Assembly (NCBI GenBank): GCA_013349325.1
Contig: DUZX01000013.1
Location: 1-64,000, forward strand
Length of the DNA: 64,000 nucleotides
From: Desulfuromonadales bacterium
Lineage (GTDB): Bacteria > Desulfobacterota > Desulfuromonadia > Geobacterales > Pseudopelobacteraceae
Direction: 5' to 3'
Part shown: positions 13,148 to 34,929 of the stretch, piece after piece
Layout: each line of letters starts with the position of its first letter
How positions within the stretch are numbered: position 1 is the first letter of the stretch
Position numbers and translations under genes: made by a program
The notes under the pieces: generated by a model
The model's database searches: none
Seen by the model: the letters and a program-made list of their open reading frames with translations, nothing else
Told to the model about the DNA's origin: nothing

Positions 13148-14342
13148 AAAGGCCGACAATCCGCTCCATGATCCGGATCAGCGCTCCGCGCCGCTCATGA
13201 ACATCCAGCTCCACAGTGTGTGAACCTTCGATCTCCTCCAGCAGCAGCTCCCGGATCTGCCCGCCGAACTGCACATTGTCCACTACACAGTTGATCTCAA
13301 AGTTGCGATGAAAACTGCGCTGATCAAGGTTGGCCGAACCGATCACGGTTCGTTCGGCATCGATCAGCATCACCTTGGCGTGCAGAATCTCACGTTCCAG
13401 TTCAAATATTTTGACACCGCCCCGCAGTAGCGTCGCGTAGGAACTCCGACCGAGCAACAGCATCAGCGGTACATCACTACGGGCCGGCAGTAGCAGCCGC
13501 ACATGTACCCCCCGGCGGACCGCCCGCAGCAGGGAACGTATGATGCGCGGGCCGGGTACGAAGTAGGGGGTAGCGATCAGAATCTCTTCGGCTGCCGAAG
13601 CGATATTAACCTGGAAGGCGTCGCGGATGTAGGAGCGGCGCTGACGCGGGCCGCCGCTGATGATGTTGACCGCCGCATCACCGCTTTTGACGCCCTGCCT
13701 CTCCCACAGTCGTCCCGGTGACGCCTGTGGGAGAGGCAGGGCCCGTTCCATGTGCCAGCTTTCGTAGAAAATCGTCACCAGCTCACTGACCGCCTCACCG
13801 CAGATGCTGAAACCCAAATCGCGGAAATTCTGACTGTCGGCCAGACAGCCGGTATACTCGTCGGCAATGTTGAAACCACCCAGAAAGGCCAGCCGGCCAT
13901 CTACGATCGTCATCTTGCGATGGTCGCGCTTGTCGAACCAGTAGACACCGCGCTGGAACGAGGGTTTGTTGAACGGAAACAGCCGAACTCCCTGCTTGGA
14001 CAGATTTTTGAAGTAGGCGGCCGGGGTTTCCAGGCAGCCGATGTAATCGTAGATCAGCTTGACTTTGACACCGCGTTGCACGGCAGCGGCCAACTCCTCA
14101 GCCAGACCGCTGCCGATGCGGTCATTGTGAATCAGATAGTATTCCAGCAGCAGGGTATGCTTTGCAGAACGGATGGCGTCAAACAGCGCCTCGAAAAACT
14201 GCCTTCCTCCCTGAAATAGTTCGACGCTGTTGTGCCGGTGAGTGACCGGCAACTCCAGCGGTCGCAGTCGCTTGAGCAACCGGGTAAAGCGGGTTCGCCG
14301 TTTACTATGCTTGAGGTGATTAACCGGCATGTTATCAGGCAA
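13131..14342 (-). CDS. cls: Cardiolipin synthase / phospholipase D-like protein
   Basis: This 403-residue protein has two HKD motifs: H141-x-K143-x4-D148 ('DHRKMTIVDG') and H321-x-K323-x4-D328 ('LHAKVMLID'), each followed by the family's 'GGFN' and 'GSANLD' signatures. Such enzymes join phosphatidylglycerol molecules into cardiolipin at the membrane. There is no N-terminal transmembrane hairpin, so it resembles ClsB more than ClsA. Its ATG overlaps the end of the upstream FAH-family gene by eight bases, suggesting translational coupling. A perfect 18-bp inverted repeat lies within the coding region (see separate entry). Confidence 0.9.
   Translation of the reverse strand: MPDNMPVNHLKHSKRRTRFTRLLKRLRPLELPVTHRHNSVELFQGGRQFFEALFDAIRSAKHTLLLEYYLIHNDRIGSGLAEELAAAVQRGVKVKLIYDYIGCLETPAAYFKNLSKQGVRLFPFNKPSFQRGVYWFDKRDHRKMTIVDGRLAFLGGFNIADEYTGCLADSQNFRDLGFSICGEAVSELVTIFYESWHMERALPLPQASPGRLWERQGVKSGDAAVNIISGGPRQRRSYIRDAFQVNIASAAEEILIATPYFVPGPRIIRSLLRAVRRGVHVRLLLPARSDVPLMLLLGRSSYATLLRGGVKIFELEREILHAKVMLIDAERTVIGSANLDQRSFHRNFEINCVVDNVQFGGQIRELLLEEIEGSHTVELDVHERRGALIRIMERIVGLFSWFL
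13692..13742. repeat. Perfect 18-bp inverted repeat inside cls
   Basis: GCCCTGCCTCTCCCACAG (13692-13709) is followed by a 15-nt loop and its exact reverse complement (13725-13742). It encodes the region LPLPQASPGRLWERQGV between the two HKD motifs. The reading frame is not interrupted. Confidence 0.9.
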
Positions 14343-20700: not shown

Positions 20701-22008
20701 ATGTCCGAGAAAAGCATTACCATCATCGGCGGCGGGTTGGCCGGCTGCGAGGCCGCCTGGCAGGCGGCGCAGCGCGGCGTATCTGTTGCTCTGCATGAAA
20801 TGAAACCGACGAAATATTCTCCGGCTCACGAGCTGCCCGGTCTGGCTGAGCTGGTCTGCTCCAATTCGCTGCGCGGCATCTCGCTTGATAACGCGGTCGG
20901 ACTGCTGAAAGAGGAACTGCGCCGGTGCGGATCATTGATCATGATGGCTGCCGAAGCCACGTCTGTTCCGGCAGGGGGAGCGCTGGCGGTCGATCGGCAG
21001 CTTTTTTCCGACTACGTTACCGCCAGAATCGAAGCTCATCCTCTGATCCGCATCGAGCGTGGCGAGGTCGATGCTGTTCCGGGCGACGGGATCGTGATTA
21101 TCGCCTCCGGTCCGCTTACCAGTGATGCCCTGGCGGCCTCGCTGGCAGAGCTGGCCGGAGACCGCCTGTACTTCTATGATGCCATCGCGCCGATTGTCGC
21201 GGCTGATTCGCTTGATATGAGCAAGGTCTTTGCCGCTTCGCGCTACGGCAAAGGGGATGGTGACGATTACCTGAACTGTCCGCTGGATGAGGCTGATTAC
21301 GTGGCTTTTATCGATGAACTGAATCGCGGCGAGAAGGTTCCGGCGCATGATTTTGAGAAGACGGTTCATTTTGAAGGCTGCATGCCGGTTGAAGAGCTGG
21401 CGGCCCGAGGCGTTGAAACACTGCGCTTCGGTCCGATGAAGCCGGTTGGTCTGCTTAATCCGCATACCGGGCATGAGGCGCATGCCGTCATCCAGCTGCG
21501 CGCCGAGAATCGGGAAAAGACGATGTACAACCTGGTCGGTTTTCAAACCAAGCTGACCTGGCCGGAACAGCGACGGGTCTTCAGGACGATTCCGGGGCTG
21601 GAGGTGGCCGAATTTGTGCGGCTTGGCTCGATGCACCGCAATACCTTTATCAATTCACCGGCACTGCTTGACGTGACCCAGCGTTTGAAAAGTGATAACC
21701 GTATTCTTTTTGCCGGCCAGATTACCGGGGTGGAGGGTTATGTCGAGTCAGGCGCCAGCGGGTTTTTAGCAGGCATTGCTGCAGCAGCTCTCATTCAGGA
21801 ACAGCCGATTCTACAACCGCCACCGGAAACAGCCTTGGGTGCCTTGATGAGGCATATTACCAATGCTGATGTGAAACATTTCCAGCCGATGAACGTCAAT
21901 TATGGACTTTTCCCGGAGCTTTCGGGGAAAATCAAAAAGAAGGAACGACGCCAGAAACTGGCCGAGCGGGCTTTAGATGCGTTGGAAGTGTGGAAGCAAG
22001 GCTTATGA
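20701..22008 (+). CDS. trmFO: Folate-dependent tRNA (uracil-5-)-methyltransferase TrmFO
   Basis: This 435-residue flavoprotein makes ribothymidine at position 54 of tRNA using methylenetetrahydrofolate and FADH2. It has the FAD motif '[18 protein letters not shown]', then 'HEMKP' and the hallmark 'LVCSNSLRG' with catalytic C53, plus the second conserved cysteine in '[15 protein letters not shown]'. The C-terminal '[22 protein letters not shown]' is typical. TrmFO is the alternative to TrmA found in Firmicutes and Deltaproteobacteria-like lineages. It lies 109 bp after topA; the gap holds GAGGCACG and CGTGCCTC arms about 50 bp apart of unclear meaning. Confidence 0.97.
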
Positions 22009-22009
22009 A

Positions 22010-22135
22010 ACACAGAGCAACGGGGCAACAGAAAAAGACAAAACCGGATATTTTTATTAAACTTGAAAACCGGCCCTCTGTTTGTTTACTATACATATTG
22101 TGAGCTTTCTCCTCTGTTGCTTAGTTGCTCTGTGA
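22010..22135. repeat. CACAGAGCAAC inverted-repeat element
   Basis: The left arm at 22011-22031 (CACAGAGCAACggggCAACAG) and the right arm at 22114-22134 (CTGTTGCttaGTTGCTCTGTG) are inverted copies flanking about 80 bp of AT-rich sequence, which itself holds a short AAACCGG/CCGG pair. It fills the trmFO to Fe-S gene gap. A related element lies at 36842-36916. Confidence 0.75.
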
Positions 22136-22153
22136 TCAATAAGGATTTTCAAA

Positions 22154-24136: not shown

Positions 24137-24179
24137 ATTATTAATCGATGCGTAATATTTTACTGAAAGGAGGGTGAAG

Positions 24180-25904
24180 ATGTCTAAAACTGCAATTAAA
24201 CCATCGCTGAACAACCCGTTTGCGCCTGCCAAAACCGTCGAGTTTACCATTCCGGGGGAAATTCCCGGGAAAAAAGGTGGCTATGAAGAGGCGATGAAGG
24301 AGGGCTATGAGCTGATCCAGCGTCCGATCAAATCGGTTAAAATCGAACAGATCGAAAAACAGCATTTTAAAAAAAGAATGACGGTCTGGGAGCGTTTGCG
24401 CGTTCTCTCCAGCAAAGAGCCCAATGTGCTTTTCCAGAACTGGGGTAAGAACCTGGATGGCGCTTCGCTGGTAACGGCTGTTCTTAATATCGGTGGCCGT
24501 GATGTCGCTGTCTATGGGCATGATTTTACGGTTCGCGCCGGTTCGATTGACGCTACCAATGGCAGCAAACTTGCCAAACTGTTCAATATGGCCGCAACTC
24601 GTGGAATTCCGGTTATCGGTATGAATGACTCTGCCGGTGCCTTCGTTCCGGCCGGTGTCGGCGGCCTGGATGGATACGCTGAAGCGTTTACGGCGCTGCG
24701 CCGCATGAGCGGCATCGTGCCGTCGATCATGTGTATGTTCGGTTTTAATGCCGGCGGCGGTTCCTACCTGCCGCGTCAGGGCAGTTTTGTCATTCAGCCG
24801 AATGACACCTTCTTCGGTTTGACCGGTCCCGGTGTTGTTAAATCGGTACTCGGCGAAGATATCACCCCGGAAGAGCTGGGTGGACCGAAGGTTCACAGTA
24901 AAACCGGCGTGGCTGATATTACCGTTACCGATGAAGTCGCTGCGCTGCGTACGGCCGTTCGCCTCTTGTCGTATATTCCGGACAACAACAGTGTCGGAGC
25001 GCCCTTTCAGGAAACCAGTGACCCGCTGGACCGTAAAACCTGGGAGATAAACACGCTGCTCAAAAAAGCGTTCAACTCGCCGACCGGATTCAATACACCC
25101 TTTGATGTGTCGATCGTTATCCAGCAGATCTGCGACCATGGCGATTATTTTGAACTACAGCCGGAGCGCGCCCGCGAAGTTGTTACCGCATTTGGTCGTC
25201 TTGGCGGCCAGGTGGTCGGCTTTGTGGCCAACAACTCAGCGGTTTCTTCCGGCCAGATCGATTGTGATTCGGCGGTCAAGATCGCCCGCTTTGTGCGCTT
25301 CTGCAATATTTACAATATTCCGATCATCTTCATGGAAGATACCACCGGCTTCCTGCCGGGACGTGAACAGGAATCGCGCGGCATCGTCCAGGCCGGTCGC
25401 TCCATGCTTGATTCGATCGTCGATGTCCGTACACCGCGTATTCTCCTGATCCTGCGCAATGCCTATGGTGGTGCCTACGCATCCTACAACAACTACCCGA
25501 CCGGTGCCGACCTGGTACTGGCTCTCCCGACCACACGGCTGGCTGTTATGGGCCCGGCCGGCAAAGAGTTCGTTTACAAGGATGAATTGCGTAAGATACG
25601 AGCTGCTGTGGCGGAGATGATTAAAAAGGGCACCGAAGAGCGGATCAAATCCGGCTCTGATGGTGCTATTGCAAAGAGTGACGCCGAGAAAGAGGCCGCA
25701 GAATATCTGAAGCTTCAGGAAACTGCGTTGAACCAGCGCTACGAAAAAGAGCTGATGAATCCGAAAGAAGGCCTGGCACTTGGTTCGATCTCTTCGATCG
25801 TTATGCCGACCGACCTGCGCAAAGTGCTTGGTGAAAATATCGCCTTCCTGATGCGGCACTACAAACCGGGTCCGATGATGGGGCCGCAGCGCGAATTCCA
25901 TTAA
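24180..25904 (+). CDS. Acyl-CoA carboxylase carboxyltransferase subunit (propionyl-CoA type likely)
   Basis: This 574-residue protein transfers carboxyl from biotin to an acyl-CoA. Features include '[25 protein letters not shown]', '[24 protein letters not shown]', '[20 protein letters not shown]' and the C-terminal '[27 protein letters not shown]' split around '[15 protein letters not shown]'. ATG 24180 follows GGAGGGTGAAG; a GTG two codons earlier is less likely. With mutase and epimerase downstream, propionyl-CoA to methylmalonyl-CoA is the natural reaction, but pyruvate-linked transcarboxylation or another acyl-CoA cannot be excluded. It is followed by an intergenic repeat and the biotin carboxylase gene. 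Confidence 0.9.
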
Positions 25905-25921
25905 TGACGGATTTTAAATAT

Positions 25922-26030
25922 CCACCACAGAGTCACTGAGAGCACGGAGAAAACAATAAGGCTCAACAGATACGGATATTTGCTGTAACCATTTTTTCGC
26001 CTTTTTCTGTGTACCCTGTGCCTCTGTGGT
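25922..26030. repeat. CACAGAG-family inverted repeat, solo copy
   Basis: The left arm 25922-25953 (CCACCACAGAGTCACTGAG, then AGCACGGAGAAAA) and the right arm 26002-26030 (ending CTGTGCCTCTGTGGT) are inverted relatives around a 48-bp core with no gene. The left arm closely matches the end of the GxxExxY cassette at 31538. It lies within the carboxylase operon. Confidence 0.8.
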
Positions 26031-26078
26031 AAGAATTTATAGAGATTTTCATTTAATAGAGGAATTGGAGATAGAAAC

Positions 26079-28958
26079 ATGACCGACTTCTACCGTAACA
26101 ACCCCTTGATTCATCGCGATCGTCGTCTTGGCGCGTCCACTTCCGAGTGGGTACGTTCTTTTGCCTGCGAAGACCTGAAACCGCTGATCGTCTGCCGTGG
26201 TCCAATCCGTAAGGAAGCCATGGATGTCTTTACCGAAATGGGGATCAGCCATTTTGGAATTCTGCTCTCGGAAAAAGATTCGATCGTCTACCCCAACGCA
26301 TTGGCGCCCGAATTGCGCCAGCTGACAGATTCCAGTCGCGTTCATCGCGTGCCCGATTACAGCGGCGCCAGCAAGGAAGAGCGCGTCGAGCGCATCAACC
26401 AGATTATTCAGATTGCCAAAGATAATAATTACGATTCTGTTTTTGCCGGTTACGGATTTATGGCTGAAGATGAAGAGTTTGTGGCTGCCATTGAGGAGGC
26501 CGGACTCTCCTTTATTGGCCCCAATTCCCTTACTCAGGCGAATGCCGGTAAAAAAGACGAAGCTAAACGTACGGCACTTTCAGTCGGCGTCAGCGTAACC
26601 CCCGGTATCAATAACGTTACCGCCCGCACGCTGGTTAAAAAGTATGGCACCCGCGACAAACTGCTGGCACTGGTCAAGACCCACGGACTGGATCTTCCGG
26701 CAGAGCTGCTGAATGACAAAAAACTCTCGCTTGAAGACCTTGCTGATCAGATCCTGTACACGTCCTACGACAAGGGGCTGGATCTCTATACGATCGAAGA
26801 GCTTTCTGATCAGGTAAAAATGGAAGTGGAAGCGATGTTCAAAGAGTACCCTGCCAGCCGTATCCGTCTCAAGGCGATCGGTGGCGGTGGCGGTAAAGGT
26901 CAGCGTATTCTCGGCGCATCACTGCTGGGGATCAAGAAACCTTCAGAAAAACAGATTCAAGAGGCCTCCGCCGATACCGCCACGCTGGTACGCGAAGTTC
27001 TGAATGAAGTCAAGGCCAACGGCGTCGGCGACAACAAGAACGTCCTGGTCGAGCTGAATATCGAGCAGACCCGTCACAACGAGATTCAGCTGGTCGGTAA
27101 CGGCGAATGGTGCGTCTCGCTGGGTGGACGTGACTGTTCGCTGCAGATGCACGAACAGAAACTGCTGGAAATTTCTGTTACCCAGGAATCACTGGTGCTT
27201 GCAATTGATAAAGCGAAGAAAGCCGGTCGCAAAGCTGAAGTCAAGGCGCTGGAAAATGATCTGAATGTTCTCAAGCGGATGGAAGACGATTCGACCAAAT
27301 TCGGTGTGGCTGTCGGCCTCGACTCTGCTTCCACCTTCGAGTGCATCGTGGATCGCGACCGCTACTATTTCATGGAGGTCAACACCCGTATCCAGGTTGA
27401 GCACCGCGTATCCGAACTCTGCTACGCGCTTAAATTCACTAATCCCAAAGATAAAAAAGATTTCTTTATTGTTGAGTCGCTGGTTGAAATGATGGGGCTC
27501 CTGGCGCGCCACAAAAAACGGCTCCCCAAGCCGGAGCGGATTCCACGCTACAGTGCCGCTGCCGAAGCACGTTTGAATGCTACCGACTGTTCTCTTTCAC
27601 CGCACGCCGGCGGTATGATCCGTTTCTGGTCAGCGCCGATCGAAGGAGAAATTCGCGACGATCAGGGTATCTGCATGGTCAACCCTGATACCGGCATGTT
27701 CATGCGCTATAAAGTTGCCGGCGCGTACGATTCCAACATCGCTCTGCTGCTGACCAAGGGCGAGGATCGACTGGCCAGCTATCAGCATCTCTCCAAAGTT
27801 CTGGGAAAAACCATCCTGCGTGGTACGGACCTGGCGACCAACCTTGAGTTCCACTACGGACTGGTAAACTGGTTCCTCGGCCAGAACGTAATGGCCAAGC
27901 CGACCACCCGTTTTGTCGTACCTTACCTGACATTGATGGGGTTATTGAAAGAGGAAACCAGCAAGCTGGATACGGTCTTCGCCTTCTTCCAGATGAAAAA
28001 GGCCTACGCCAAAAAAATGGCTGAACAGTTTCCGGAAGATCCGAAGGTGGGCAAGGAGATGTCCGCCATTCTTGACCGCAAGGGGACTCTGGTTACCCGT
28101 CCGATGGACAAGCTGATTGAAGATCCGCATCTGCTCTCCGGCTGGCTGTCTCTCAACCGGGCAAACTTCAGTATACAGAAAGGAAACGTTGTCTGGCATG
28201 GCAATCCTTTCATCATTCTGGCTGATACCTACGAATACCTCAATATGTCCTGGAACCCCCAGGCTCCTGCGGCCGAAGTTATCTGGGAGCATGATAATGA
28301 GCTGCTACAGAAGGGTATCCGCTTTTACAGCACCCTGTCGGAGCGCTTCAAACTGGGTATGCATGAATTCGACAAGCTGTCTGCCCTGGTTGCCAAAGAT
28401 AAACCGCAAGCCGGTTTCAGTGCTGAAGAGTGGGAACAGATTCGTCAGGCGCACACCGGCTTTGAAGCGGGACTTGAACTGCTCGGCATGTTGTTCAGCG
28501 TGGCTGAAAAAATCAAATTCTGGGATTTCAAGATCGAAGACGATCTCGAGGTTACCATTCCTGAGTACCTGCATGATACAGAGCTGCAGGCCCGTATGAA
28601 AAAAATACTGGTTCCGCCGCCCTCCACCAAGGCGGATGAAATCGTCGCCATCTGCGGCGGTATGTACTACGGTCAGGAAGCACCCGGTCTGCCGATGTTT
28701 GTCAGCGAAGGTATGCATTTTGAAAAGGGACAGGCGCTCTACATCATCGAAGTTATGAAAATGTTTAACACTGTCCGGGCTGTTTTCTCCGGTACAATTG
28801 ACAAGATCATCATGCAGGGTGTTGACGGTTCCATCGTTCAGAAAGGGCAGCCGCTCTTCAAGATCACGCCGGATGAAAAATTTGTAGATATTGATCCTAA
28901 AGAGCTGGAACGGGAAAAACGGGAGCGCACCTCAGAGTATCTGCGCCAGGTTCTGTAA
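26079..28958 (+). CDS. Long biotin carboxylase with C-terminal biotinyl domain
   Basis: This 959-residue protein carboxylates its own biotin. The N-terminal region is a biotin carboxylase with ATP-grasp loop 'KAIGGGGGKGQRIL' near residue 266 and 'EVNTRIQVEHRVSE' near 433. Compared with a standard 450-residue carboxylase there is extra sequence at about 180-260 (before the glycine loop) and a roughly 350-residue segment of unknown fold between the carboxylase and the biotin domain. Biotin attaches at K894 in 'EVMKMFN'. It pairs with the carboxyltransferase upstream. It lacks a carboxyltransferase domain of its own, so it is not a pyruvate carboxylase. Confidence 0.9.
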   Translation: MTDFYRNNPLIHRDRRLGASTSEWVRSFACEDLKPLIVCRGPIRKEAMDVFTEMGISHFGILLSEKDSIVYPNALAPELRQLTDSSRVHRVPDYSGASKEERVERINQIIQIAKDNNYDSVFAGYGFMAEDEEFVAAIEEAGLSFIGPNSLTQANAGKKDEAKRTALSVGVSVTPGINNVTARTLVKKYGTRDKLLALVKTHGLDLPAELLNDKKLSLEDLADQILYTSYDKGLDLYTIEELSDQVKMEVEAMFKEYPASRIRLKAIGGGGGKGQRILGASLLGIKKPSEKQIQEASADTATLVREVLNEVKANGVGDNKNVLVELNIEQTRHNEIQLVGNGEWCVSLGGRDCSLQMHEQKLLEISVTQESLVLAIDKAKKAGRKAEVKALENDLNVLKRMEDDSTKFGVAVGLDSASTFECIVDRDRYYFMEVNTRIQVEHRVSELCYALKFTNPKDKKDFFIVESLVEMMGLLARHKKRLPKPERIPRYSAAAEARLNATDCSLSPHAGGMIRFWSAPIEGEIRDDQGICMVNPDTGMFMRYKVAGAYDSNIALLLTKGEDRLASYQHLSKVLGKTILRGTDLATNLEFHYGLVNWFLGQNVMAKPTTRFVVPYLTLMGLLKEETSKLDTVFAFFQMKKAYAKKMAEQFPEDPKVGKEMSAILDRKGTLVTRPMDKLIEDPHLLSGWLSLNRANFSIQKGNVVWHGNPFIILADTYEYLNMSWNPQAPAAEVIWEHDNELLQKGIRFYSTLSERFKLGMHEFDKLSALVAKDKPQAGFSAEEWEQIRQAHTGFEAGLELLGMLFSVAEKIKFWDFKIEDDLEVTIPEYLHDTELQARMKKILVPPPSTKADEIVAICGGMYYGQEAPGLPMFVSEGMHFEKGQALYIIEVMKMFNTVRAVFSGTIDKIIMQGVDGSIVQKGQPLFKITPDEKFVDIDPKELEREKRERTSEYLRQVL

Positions 28959-29864: not shown

Positions 29865-31517
29865 ATGAGTATTCAAGAAAAAAAACAGAAATGGAATGAA
29901 AAGGTTGCCAAGAGCCTTGCCAAGTCGCCGGAGCGTATGGACCCCTTTCTGACTTCATCCACTATCGAATTTGAGCGCTGTTTTACCCCCGATTTCGAGT
30001 ATCCCGGTTATGACGAAACGCTGGGACTGCCTGGTGAATACCCCTATACCAGAGGTGTTCAACCGACCATGTATCGCGGCCGCTTCTGGACCATGCGTCA
30101 GTACGCCGGTTTCGGCACCGCCAAAGAGTCCAACGAGCGTTATAAATATCTGCTTTCAGCCGGTCAGACCGGACTCTCAATCGCCTTCGACCTGCCGACC
30201 CAGATGGGGTATGACTCCGATGCCGGTATGAGTCTCGGCGAAGTCGGCAAAGTCGGTGTCGCCATCGACTCACTGGCCGACATGGAGATCCTTTTCGACG
30301 GCATCCCGCTCGATAAAGTCTCCACCTCAATGACGATCAACTCAACCGCTGCCATCCTGCTCTGCATGTACATCGCCGTTGCAGAAAAACAGGGCGTTTC
30401 GGCCGACAAGATTTCCGGCACGATTCAGAATGATATCCTCAAAGAGTACATGGCCCGTGGCACCTACATCTACCCGCCCAAAGAATCAATGCGCATCATT
30501 ACCGACATCTTCGCCTACTGCAAAGACCATGTACCCAAGTGGAACACGATCTCGATTTCCGGCTACCACATCCGCGAAGCCGGATCCAGCGCCGTGCAGG
30601 AAGTCGCCTTCACGCTGGCCGACGGCATTGCCTACGTCGATGCCGCCATCAAGGCCGGGCTTGAGGTCGACGAATTTGCGCCGCGTCTGGCGTTCTTCTT
30701 CAATTCCCACAACAATCTCTTTGAAGAGGTTGCAAAATTCCGTGCTGCCCGTCGCATCTGGGCCAGGATCATGAAAGAGCGCTTCGGCGCCAAGGATCCC
30801 AAGTCCCAGATGCTGCGCTTCCACACCCAGACGGCCGGCTGCACATTGACTGCCCAGCAGCCGGACAACAACATCATGCGCGTCACTATTCAGGCCCTGG
30901 CGGCCGTACTGGGCGGCACACAGTCGCTGCACACCAACTCGCGCGACGAAGCGCTGGCGCTGCCGACGGAGGATTCAGTCCGTATCGCCCTGCGTACTCA
31001 GCAGGTTATCGCCTACGAATCGGGCGCCGCCGACAGCGTCGATCCGCTGGCCGGTTCTTTCCTGATCGAGTCGCTGACCGACCAGATCGAAAAAGCCGCT
31101 CTGGAATATATCGAAAAGATTGATTCTTTGGGAGGCGCAGTCGAAGCCATCTCGCGCGGTTTCCAGCAGAAGGAGATCCAGGATTCTGCCTATGCCTATC
31201 AGAAGGATATCGAAAAGGATCAGCTGATCATCGTCGGCGTCAACAAATTCACCGTCGAGGAGCCGCCTCCGGCCGGTCTGCTGAAAGTCAAGGAGGAAGT
31301 GGAGATTTCACAGAAAGCGTCACTGGCAGCAATGAAAGCCGGCCGTAACGAGCAAGCGGTTCAGGAAGCACTGGCACTGCTGCTGACAGCAGCCAAGAGC
31401 ACGGACAACCTGATGCCGCACATCCTGAAAGCGGTCAAAGCCTACGCCACGCTGGGCGAGATAGCCGACGTGTTCAGAGGGGTATTCGGCAAGCACACGG
31501 AGACCGTGGTTCTTTGA
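29865..31517 (+). CDS. mcmA: Methylmalonyl-CoA mutase large (catalytic) subunit
   Basis: This 550-residue protein is the catalytic TIM-barrel part of a B12-dependent acyl-CoA mutase, interconverting methylmalonyl-CoA and succinyl-CoA. Y70 ('TMYRGRFW'), R198 ('[11 protein letters not shown]') and H235 ('ISGYH') match the residues that in methylmalonyl-CoA mutase (Y89, R207, H244 in Propionibacterium) select the carboxylated substrate, whereas isobutyryl-CoA mutases have Phe and Gln at the first two. The B12-binding domain is absent, so a separate small subunit is needed; it is not in this window. GGAGAAAA precedes ATG 29865. The epimerase follows, beyond an inserted GxxExxY cassette. Confidence 0.93.
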
Positions 31518-31537
31518 TTACAGTTAAGGCCAACTTC

Positions 31538-31976
31538 TCACCACGGAGTCACAGAGGACACTGAGAAATCATGTATCCAAATGGTGAACTGACAGGATTG
31601 ATTATTGAAGCAGCTATTGAGGTTCATAGACATTTGGGGCCCGGTTTAATCGAGTCTGTTTATGAAACCTGTTTTTCGTACGAGCTTCATGAGCGGAACC
31701 TCAATCATGAACGGCAAAAAGAAATCGCTTTGATCTACAAAGGTATTTCTCTTGACAGCACCTGTCGGCTCGATTTGGTTGTCGAAGGAAAAGTAATTGT
31801 CGAGTTGAAGAGTGTTGAACAGCTTCATCCACTGCATGAAGCTCAAATACTAACCTACCTTAAACTGACGGGGATAAAAACAGGTCTGCTGATAAATTTT
31901 AATAGCCGACTTTTAAAAGATGGTATCAGGCGATTTGTTTTATGATTCCCCTGTGTCCTCTGTGACTCAGTGGTGA
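31538..31976. mobile_element. GxxExxY cassette bounded by 24-bp inverted repeats
   Basis: The left end (31538-31561, TCACCACGGAGTCACAGAGG...) and the right end (31953-31976, reverse complement TCACCACTGAGTCACAGAGG...) agree at 23 of 24 positions. Between them is a single gene, 31571-31945, filling almost the whole interval. The cassette separates mcmA from the epimerase gene. The same end sequence appears without a gene at 25922-26030. Mobility is inferred, not shown; I do not see target-site duplications with confidence. Confidence 0.6.
31571..31945 (+). CDS. GxxExxY protein (PD-(D/E)XK nuclease-like)
   Basis: This 124-residue protein has the motif G25-L-I-E28-S-V-Y31 that names the GxxExxY family. 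A PD-(D/E)XK-type active site can be read: D68, then E78-L-K80 ('CRLDLVVEGKVIVELKSV'), then Q92-xxx-Y96 ('AQILTYL'). The family is assigned to that nuclease superfamily, but its biological role is not established as far as I know. Its start codon lies 9 bp inside the left inverted repeat and its stop 7 bp before the right one. It has nothing obvious to do with the surrounding methylmalonyl-CoA genes. Confidence 0.88.
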   Translation: MYPNGELTGLIIEAAIEVHRHLGPGLIESVYETCFSYELHERNLNHERQKEIALIYKGISLDSTCRLDLVVEGKVIVELKSVEQLHPLHEAQILTYLKLTGIKTGLLINFNSRLLKDGIRRFVL

Positions 31977-31996
31977 GGTTCTGAAAGGTAAATTTA

Positions 31997-32401
31997 ATGC
32001 TAGAGAAAATCAATCACATCGGAATTGCTGTCACATCGCTCGAAGCTACGCTCCCTTTTTATCGTGATAACCTCTCCATGCCGTTTGCCGGTATTGAGGA
32101 GGTGTCGGAGCAGATGGTGCGGGTCGCCATGCTGCAGGTTGGCGAGTCCAAGATCGAACTGCTGGAGCCGACGTCACCTGACAGCCCGGTTGCCAAGTTT
32201 ATCGAAAAGAACGGCCCCGGCATCCATCACATCGCCTACGAAGTGGCGGATATCGAGGCTGCCATCGCCAAGCTTACTGCTGATGGTGTGCGTATGATCG
32301 ACGCTCAGCCGCGCGCCGGTGCACACGGCACCCGCATCGCTTTTCTGCACCCCAAGGCAAGTAACGGGGTTTTGACGGAATTGTGCCAGTGTGGCCACTG
32401 A
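31997..32401 (+). CDS. mce: Methylmalonyl-CoA epimerase
   Basis: This 134-residue vicinal-oxygen-chelate protein interconverts the R and S forms of methylmalonyl-CoA, linking the carboxylase product to the mutase. Family motifs are 'INHIGIAVTSLE' (metal ligand H7), 'KIELLEP', 'GIHHIAYEV' (His 77/78), 'AGAHGTRIAFLHPK' and 'GVLTELCQ' (E128). Length is normal for the family. It follows the GxxExxY cassette by about 20 bp; before that insertion it would have adjoined mcmA. The downstream 470 bp are non-coding up to the porin. Confidence 0.95.
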   Translation: MLEKINHIGIAVTSLEATLPFYRDNLSMPFAGIEEVSEQMVRVAMLQVGESKIELLEPTSPDSPVAKFIEKNGPGIHHIAYEVADIEAAIAKLTADGVRMIDAQPRAGAHGTRIAFLHPKASNGVLTELCQCGH

Positions 32402-34344: not shown

Positions 34345-34623
34345 ATGATTATGAGCTTCCGACACAAAGGCTTGGCCTCTTTTTTTAGTACGGGCAGCAA
34401 GTCAGGTATCCAGGCGCACCACGAAAAAAAGTTGCGTCTTATACTTGGTCGGCTTGCTGTTGCACGAGAATTACGTGATATGAATTTGCCCGGATTAAGG
34501 ATGCATCCGCTTTCGGGTGATTTGAATGGATACATTGCGCTCGACGTATCCGGCAATTGGAGGATTGTTTTCCGCTTTGAGGGCAATGACGTTGCTGATG
34601 TTGATTATCTCGATTATCACTGA
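34345..34623 (+). CDS. higB: HigB-type ribosome-dependent mRNA endonuclease toxin
   Basis: This 92-residue RelE-superfamily toxin matches the HigB subgroup: 'MIMSFRHKGLASFFSTGSKSGIQAHHEKKLRLILGRLAVA' and 'MNLPGLRMHPLSGDLNGYIALDVSGNWRIVFRFEGNDVADVDYLDYH'. HigB cleaves mRNA on translating ribosomes. The first ATG (34345) aligns with the common family start. The antitoxin follows after 18 bp; toxin-first order is the standard arrangement for higBA. Both genes look intact, so this may be the one functional classical module in the patch. Confidence 0.93.
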   Translation: MIMSFRHKGLASFFSTGSKSGIQAHHEKKLRLILGRLAVARELRDMNLPGLRMHPLSGDLNGYIALDVSGNWRIVFRFEGNDVADVDYLDYH

Positions 34624-34641
34624 AACAAAAGGAGCAGGAGT

Positions 34642-34929
34642 ATGATGTTCAATCCACCACATCCGGGTGAAATAATTCGTGAACTTTGTCTTGAACCACT
34701 CGGAATATCCGTTCAACGTGCCGCGCTTGCACTTGGCGTTAGCCGAAAAACACTTTCTGAACTTCTGAATGGTCATTCACGCATCACGACTGAAATGGCG
34801 TTACGGCTGTCAATTGCATTTGACACAACACCCGAAAGCTGGCTTTCACAGCAAATGCAGTATGACCTCTGGTGTTCGCGAGAAAAAACCGGCACCTTAA
34901 AAGTTCAGCGACTCGCGCTTGCTGCGTAG
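34642..34929 (+). CDS. higA: HigA-type antitoxin
   Basis: This 95-residue XRE-family antitoxin begins '[59 protein letters not shown]', the characteristic HigA/VapI start with the helix-turn-helix at about residues 24-62, followed by '[16 protein letters not shown]'. It binds HigB and represses the operon. Either of the first two ATG codons could be used; GGAGCAGGAG lies upstream. Confidence 0.94.

Follow-up and report, generated by a model that had tools for sequence, protein, structure and literature searches.

Most GxxExxY genes are inherited as one unit with the inverted repeats, here called arms, that stand on either side of them. Related units sit at unrelated chromosomal sites, and a site that is filled in one genome is empty in relatives. 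We are nearly certain that gene and arms form a single unit with lineage-specific arms, and we think it quite likely that this unit is or was mobile. The argument is built around a 64,000 nucleotide stretch of a Desulfuromonadales genome, called the window here. Its relevant features are these.

22002-22032 / 22113-22143, no strand: gene-less inverted pair of the GAGCAAC-unit class, 81% complementary
25915-25952 / 26002-26039, no strand: gene-less inverted pair of the CACAGAG-T class, as at the 31571 gene, 71% complementary
29865-31517, + strand: methylmalonyl-CoA mutase gene (mcmA), left neighbour (PF01642, 770 bits)
31537-31572, + strand: left arm, CTCACCACGGAGTCACAGAGGACACTGAG..., three tandem units (inverted-repeat search, genome motif count)
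31571-31945, + strand: GxxExxY gene, 124 aa, predicted PD-(D/E)XK nuclease fold (TIGR04256, PF13366)
31942-31977, - strand: right arm, the left arm copied in inverted orientation
31997-32401, + strand: glyoxalase-fold gene, probable methylmalonyl-CoA epimerase (mce), right neighbour (PF13669, 94.3 bits)

A preliminary description of this DNA had the gene splitting mcmA from mce, and the PF01642 match on the left and a glyoxalase-fold gene consistent with mce on the right agree with that. It also had the gene framed by 24-bp repeats agreeing at 23 positions. On rereading, the cores (CTCACCACGGAGTCACAGAGGACAC and CTCACCACTGAGTCACAGAGGACAC) differ by one mismatch; the left core stops 9 nt ahead of the ATG and the right core begins 7 nt past the stop. 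The full arm pair is 36 nt long and 89% complementary, and across all 64 kb it ranks first among the 15 inverted pairs of at least 20 nt that lie within 600 bp. Read inwards, the arm is CACGGAG-T-CACAGAG-GA-CACTGAG, which is three tandem units. The left arm extends to the start codon, and its inner unit, directly 5' of the ATG, may be the ribosome-binding site of the gene.

The motif CACNRAGNCACNGAG occurs 4 times in the window with at most one mismatch, against 0.53 expected, and none of 100 shuffles reaches 4. A longer form of it occurs 33 times in the genome (3.58 Mb in 72 contigs) and its reversed control once. The gene-less repeat that the preliminary description had placed at 25922-26030 is real. 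The pair at 25915-26039 lies in the gap between ORFs 24174-25904 and 26079-28958, which by eye are putative carboxylase genes. The gene-less pair at 22002-22143 is an addition to that description. Two further GxxExxY genes in this genome adjoin other arms, of the CACGCGGAG type (L003) and the GGATTTCTCAGGATTACCCAGGATT type (L002). The GAGCAAC arm class is found at none of the three genes, despite the 22002-22143 pair. Elsewhere in the window, a 23-nt inverted repeat at 13692-13742 (96% complementary, 5 nt between its arms) is perhaps a terminator. Two small adjacent ORFs at 34345-34929 look by eye like a possible HigB/HigA-type toxin-antitoxin pair.

The GxxExxY protein and its family

The window protein is a full member of TIGR04256 (153.7 bits, E 2.3e-45, against a curated cut-off of 35 bits) and of PF13366 (PDDEXK_3, 150 bits). 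At E up to 1, Pfam gives only PDDEXK_3 above its cut-off and Cas_Cas4 below it; the HUH/Y1 tyrosine transposase domain was not found in that search. The D68/E78/K80/Q92 set pointed out earlier is present in full and is conserved. D68 and K80 are invariant and E78 nearly so in alignments of 25 and 43 rows, and Q92 is invariant in the first alignment and nearly so in the second. The dN/dS ratio is 0.03-0.18 in 11 of 13 GxxExxY pairs, the other two being not computable and several dS values being saturated.

The AlphaFold2 model of the protein has pLDDT 94.7 and pTM 0.86. The best match in a fold search is SSO0001 (4ic1; Z 9.9, 98 aligned, 3.4 A), and further neighbours are 3ijm (Z 7.8), BglII (7.4) and Hjc (6.8). 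Many PD-(D/E)XK nucleases score at Z 5.6-7.8, a range possibly reflecting a common arrangement. The best Foldseek E for the model is 9e-3, and sequence searches at E up to 10 returned no relative of solved structure. Judged by its model, the protein has the PD-(D/E)XK (restriction-endonuclease-like) fold. It is nuclease-like, and the fold does not tell its substrate. We rejected a Cas4 identity on scores of 12.7 bits for TIGR00372 (cut-off 65) and 17.7 for PF01930 (cut-off 22.7). A defence system was rejected as well, as PADLOC matched the window protein to Cas4 models alone at 12-18 bits.

GxxExxY matches occur in 49 of the 60 genomes sampled from the window's taxonomic family, with a column sum of 135 matches, and in 70 of 198 genomes sampled from the phylum. 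Two phylum genomes (G255 and G191) have 8-10 matches each, fragments included, which suggests turnover. A phage origin was considered, and one peptide pattern gave only three relatives in viral contigs. Plasmid records contribute 8 relatives in 72,556. The TIGR04256 and PF13366 model descriptions name neither a repeat partner nor a specific function.

Arm dialects and chromosomal sites

We scored arms by locally aligning the 400 bp upstream of each gene with the reverse complement of the 400 bp downstream, and a score of at least 16 counted as arms. In the taxonomic family 83 of the 135 matches were tested, the window copy included; these are the higher-scoring ones, with fragments and many lower-scoring matches left out. 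Arms flank 70 of these 83 genes against 8 of 610 control windows displaced by 1.4-3.2 kb, and 55 of 83 against 2 of 610 at a score of at least 20. In a comparison with the remaining ORFs of 80 codons or more at these loci, the counts are 68/80 for GxxExxY and 7/331 for the rest. The preliminary description had proposed comparing repeats at GxxExxY genes with those elsewhere, and arms turn out to be far commoner here than in either kind of control, displaced windows or the remaining ORFs.

The same holds beyond the family. A broad set of 80 loci with titles from many phyla, chosen by similarity to the window's subfamily, had 78 usable members. Arms are found at 65 of them (34 of 500 shifted windows), at 51 with a score of at least 20 (3 of 500), and at 20 of 286 other ORFs. 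The phylum set, with one locus per genome and with L340 kept though its frame check failed, has arms at 26 of 29 loci against 5 of 54 controls. No arm pair at the score used was found at 13 of the 83 family genes, or at the one archaeal-titled locus of the broad set (L186, score 11). The best internal lag is 7-10 nt in 60 of 70 and in 54 of 64 arms (39% when shuffled), and lags of 8 and 9 nt are the most frequent. Each arm repeats its unit about three times in tandem, every 8-9 nt or so. Chance or compositional repeats as the source of the arms are ruled out by the shuffled, reversed, shifted and other-ORF controls. At two loci (L140 and L141) the gene seems to have a whole inverted pair, not a single arm, on either side. 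At another (L109, G004:C3:165508-176251) three consecutive GxxExxY copies each have CACGAAA arms, and two of these copies are identical in protein over the matched part.

The unit sequence varies by nuclease lineage (CACAGAG, GAGCAAC, CGCAACG, CACGAAA and others). CACAGAG, the repeat type that the preliminary description proposed to look for at GxxExxY genes of other genomes, is one dialect of many, and the arm it belongs to is three tandem units. A universal motif is rejected. We compared dialects among 67 genes with arms scoring at least 16 and no internal stop. Between genomes, arm similarity follows protein identity with a Pearson coefficient of 0.61 (maximum 0.12 in 1,500 permutations) and a Spearman coefficient of 0.38 (maximum 0.14 in 500). 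Arms are shared by 87-88% of pairs at least 70% identical and by 0.5-3.6% of pairs below 50%. On the protein tree, which has few columns and many open forks, the arm motif tracks the clades by eye. Chromosomal position does not account for this. Among pairs at least 70% identical with no common neighbour gene, 38 of 46 share arms, though the pairs are not independent. These divide into 25 of 29 at 70-80% identity and 13 of 17 above 80%. Below 50% identity only 31 of 1,512 such pairs share arms. Since close nucleases share arms at unrelated sites, the arms travel with the gene.

The mcmA-mce junction offers a test at one fixed site. Matches to mce are present in 30 of 31 genomes of the genus, and 29 junctions are readable. 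A GxxExxY gene, broken in three cases, occupies twelve of these, and inverted arms can be seen on both flanks; in one genome (G058) the left and right arms are of different dialects and score 15. The other 17 junctions are 24-197 bp long without a GxxExxY gene. No arm was found in them, just three isolated unit-like heptamers. The preliminary description had suggested looking for empty sites in close relatives, and relatives here carry either nuclease-matched arms or no element. Neither of the two outcomes named there as refuting the idea was borne out. Sixteen loci with both mcmA and GxxExxY, from the genus and two other genera, were used for a site correlation. Arms correlate with the nuclease (r 0.67) and not with mcmA (0.08), and the nuclease does not follow mcmA either (0.13). 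The partial correlations are 0.67 for arms with nuclease (p 2e-4) and 0.00 for arms with mcmA (p 0.48). Since the arms match the nuclease and not mcmA, different nuclease types with their own arms have taken up this junction, either through insertion more than once or through transfer among species. Instead of being new insertions, the mcmA-mce copies could be old ones that homologous recombination has exchanged. Together with the unrelated-site pairs, the partial correlations refute the idea that it is the chromosomal site, and not the gene, to which arms are tied. GxxExxY adjoins mce in other genera too, and at four loci of one genus (g2) the upstream neighbour is different or unrecognised. 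At one mcmA-mce locus (L170, G062) the left arm unit CACGGAGA is expanded to a long tandem array around an N run.

When copies at different sites are compared by eye, similarity fades near the arms. This is clearest for the CACGAAA and CACAAAG groups, and boundaries are less clear where arms are nested or displaced. Orientation is more constrained than the arms would suggest. Neighbours within 600 bp were taken from simple ORF calls. When the two neighbours share a direction, the gene has it too in 52 of 52 cases in the taxonomic family (L063-L142), in 40 of 40 without the mce-site loci, and in 35 of 43 in the broad set (L176-L255). Since the arms are symmetric, this calls for selection for co-transcription, strand-specific insertion or shared descent.

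Gene-less pairs and their outer ends

Arms are dispersed through these genomes without a gene between them. In counts of arm patterns over the 60 genomes the reversed controls are at or near zero, with one exception (7 for the CACGAAA pattern in G025). The CACAGAG-T arms peak in G024 (73), G053 (61) and G000 (31), all of which carry the cognate gene. We related dispersed arms to gene presence in four classes after subtracting gene-adjacent arms. Classes were assigned by hand from fetched loci, by arms or protein clade, with G058 placed by one arm. Dispersed arms are commoner with the cognate gene in three classes: p 6e-4 (4 vs 56 genomes), 1e-4 (7 vs 53) and 1.4e-4 (8 vs 52), where G040 and G059 are counted as lacking a cognate gene for the CGCAACG arms that adjoin unfetched GxxExxY genes in them. 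For the CACGAAA class the link of gene to arm number has p 0.22 (4 vs 56 genomes). GAGCAAC arms number 38, 38 and 26 in G000, G055 and G057, without an intact cognate gene among the fetched loci.

The gene-less pairs are roughly 90-150 bp long with conserved ends. By eye, most of the 20 regions from G024 (the interior is different in three) and about 13 of the 20 from G000 align as dispersed elements whose interiors are conserved and whose flanks are unrelated. Pairs of three arm classes in these two genomes have similar outer ends, CCTRAAAACGGCA...-like (L256-L287, L309, L310; partly by eye). Some have AT-rich 5-bp target duplications such as TTTAT, TTGAT and ATTAA. In two families, CCT...AGG ends with a perfect 5-bp duplication are found at 8 of 32 gene-less regions against 69 of 3,000 swapped pairs. 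Among the CACGAAA pairs of G024 one such case was found by script and one by eye. In the CGCAACG class the outer sequence is different and weaker by eye. Such ends and duplications suggest a DDE transposase. We rejected CCT...AGG as the termini of the gene-bearing element, since a scan limited to these ends and a 5-bp duplication found them with a perfect duplication at 0 of 70 loci that carry the gene. The chief difficulty lies in these two layers, the arms and the ends outside them. Given that outer ends with duplications were found in gene-less families and not at those 70 loci, another enzyme may be involved.

A nuclease with its own repeats

We argue that the best account is an arm-bounded nuclease element with gene-less derivatives, one that follows a RAYT/REPIN-like logic with unrelated chemistry. 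We hold this to be probably right. The element would be minimal, about 440 bp, with one GxxExxY nuclease gene between two inverted arms. The nuclease would read the tandem units of its own arms and then nick or cut there. Host repair or replication would copy the arm-bounded segment to new intergenic sites, either with the gene or as a gene-less derivative. The new sites would often lie within rows of genes, so that the element is transcribed with its hosts. We favour, with real room for error, the inference that the nuclease moves the arms by acting on them. Several points count against the element: the p of 0.22 for CACGAAA, the GAGCAAC arms in genomes without a fetched intact cognate gene, the 13 of 83 genes and the archaeal-titled locus with no arm pair at the score used, the mixed arms of G058, the CCT...AGG ends and 5-bp duplications of gene-less families, the chance that the mcmA-mce copies are old, and the 52/52 orientation, for which symmetric arms do not account by themselves.

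The nearest known system is the RAYT. RAYT genes adjoin REPs. In RAYT/REP/REPIN systems, as here, a gene has its own inverted repeats, and these are also dispersed as gene-less inverted pairs. The chemistry differs, since here the fold is that of a PD-(D/E)XK nuclease and the arms consist of units repeated in tandem about every 8-9 nt. In one study RAYTs are tyrosine transposases, single-copy and vertically inherited, and REPIN repeats are more numerous where the RAYT gene is present (PMC8049555). The GxxExxY gene and its arms are instead found at unrelated sites, with differing types at mcmA-mce. The earlier reading of a nuclease-repeat partnership like that of RAYT stands in part. Support for the partnership is strong, and the gene-less pairs fit the likeness in being scattered and, for three of four classes, commoner with the gene. 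The likeness gives out where gene and arms sit at different sites, and where the gene-less families have CCT...AGG ends and duplications that gene-bearing loci lack. The gene-less pairs resemble MITEs in that their ends are conserved and that certain members of two families have 5-bp target duplications. Unlike MITEs, their inner ends are cognate to a nuclease lineage and not to a known transposase. Cas4/RecB-type and other PD-(D/E)XK nucleases, Hjc and restriction enzymes share the fold (the Cas4 sequence matches being weak), and what sets the GxxExxY protein apart from Cas4, Hjc and restriction enzymes is that it stands alone at 124 aa. The partnership had been called undescribed, and no work tying GxxExxY to such repeats was found in open-licence full text. 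PMC8934634 mentions a GxxExxY-domain gene next to a reverse transcriptase, and PMC2996986 reports many multicopy intergenic sequences in G. bemidjiensis.

The arms themselves have been seen before. In 2009 paired tandem-repeat sites in Geobacter metallireducens were described as possible sites of the global regulators IHF/HU (PMC2700814). Class 1 in that account is four tandem units of GTTGCTYN and class 2 is three of TCTCCGTS[Y], as opposite-strand pairs at variable distance, and such sites are said there not to be identified in G. sulfurreducens. Reverse-complemented, these units match the GAGCAAC and CACGGAG arms. The difference is that the sites were read as regulatory, and the relevant passages mention no GxxExxY gene. 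Such sites lend some weight to taking the arms as ordinary intergenic repeats that happen to adjoin a gene family with a preference for those regions. We find this hardly credible. Other ORFs in the same loci are flanked in just 7 of 331 and 20 of 286 cases, and the dialect tracks the nuclease within one fixed site. The ordinary-repeat reading is already contradicted by the dialect correlation, the mcmA-mce junction, the other-ORF counts and the unrelated-site pairs.

One could instead suppose that the arms act in RNA, pairing in a polycistronic mRNA so that the looped gene is processed by RNase III or by the nuclease itself and its message is isolated from the host operon, with mobility incidental. 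Host orientation (52/52, 40/40 and 35/43) and a left arm that reaches the start codon would fit. We consider this quite improbable, since dispersed gene-less pairs with conserved interiors and unrelated flanks need DNA mobility, and processing does not require lineage-specific tandem units. Homing is another route. Here the nuclease would cut an uninterrupted target such as the mcmA-mce junction and be copied in by homologous repair, and the arms would be secondary, for protection, expression or repair. Different nuclease types at one junction upstream of mce, the weak tie of nuclease to mcmA (r 0.13), the failure to find the scanned type of target duplication where the gene is present, and restriction enzymes and junction resolvases among the fold neighbours all suit it. 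However, many nucleases of other lineages have no common neighbour gene, and homing leaves the dispersed gene-less pairs and the co-variation of arms and nuclease unexplained. We regard it as rather unlikely. A further scenario makes the nuclease a passenger. The arms would be transposon-derived miniature elements moved by a DDE transposase that reads CCT...AGG, and the nuclease, captured early, would regulate or ride. We judge this unlikely. It draws on the CCTRAAAACGGCA...-like ends of gene-less pairs in three arm classes of G024 and G000, some with 5-bp duplications, but those ends with a perfect duplication are at none of the 70 gene-bearing loci, and the CGCAACG class departs from them by eye. 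The link of arms to nuclease spans many phyla and the dialect tracks lineage, and a shared transposase would predict neither. The 49 end-like places listed in the window's 72-contig draft genome include, by eye, no pair enclosing a transposase-sized gap.

Returning to the arm-bounded element, the results point to a lone nuclease paired with its own repeats as an unrecognised kind of mobile DNA. The fullest form of the claim is a widespread autonomous bacterial element whose sole gene is a stand-alone PD-(D/E)XK nuclease and which lacks transposase, integrase and reverse transcriptase, with a tandem-unit code of its own in each lineage that changes along with the protein, and with gene-less pairs as its non-autonomous offspring. 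We put this at an even chance. If it is true, it would explain the paired tandem-repeat sites of Geobacter that were once taken for IHF/HU sites. Should the nuclease move its arms, DNA mobility would gain a further enzymatic basis, a nuclease of some 120 residues that needs no transposase. The little-studied GxxExxY family gains a function hypothesis, which would account for a class of abundant intergenic repeats. The family would also offer a protein-DNA code made by nature, in which dozens of small relatives are each paired with a short target of their own, of use in studies of specificity and possibly for programmable binding.
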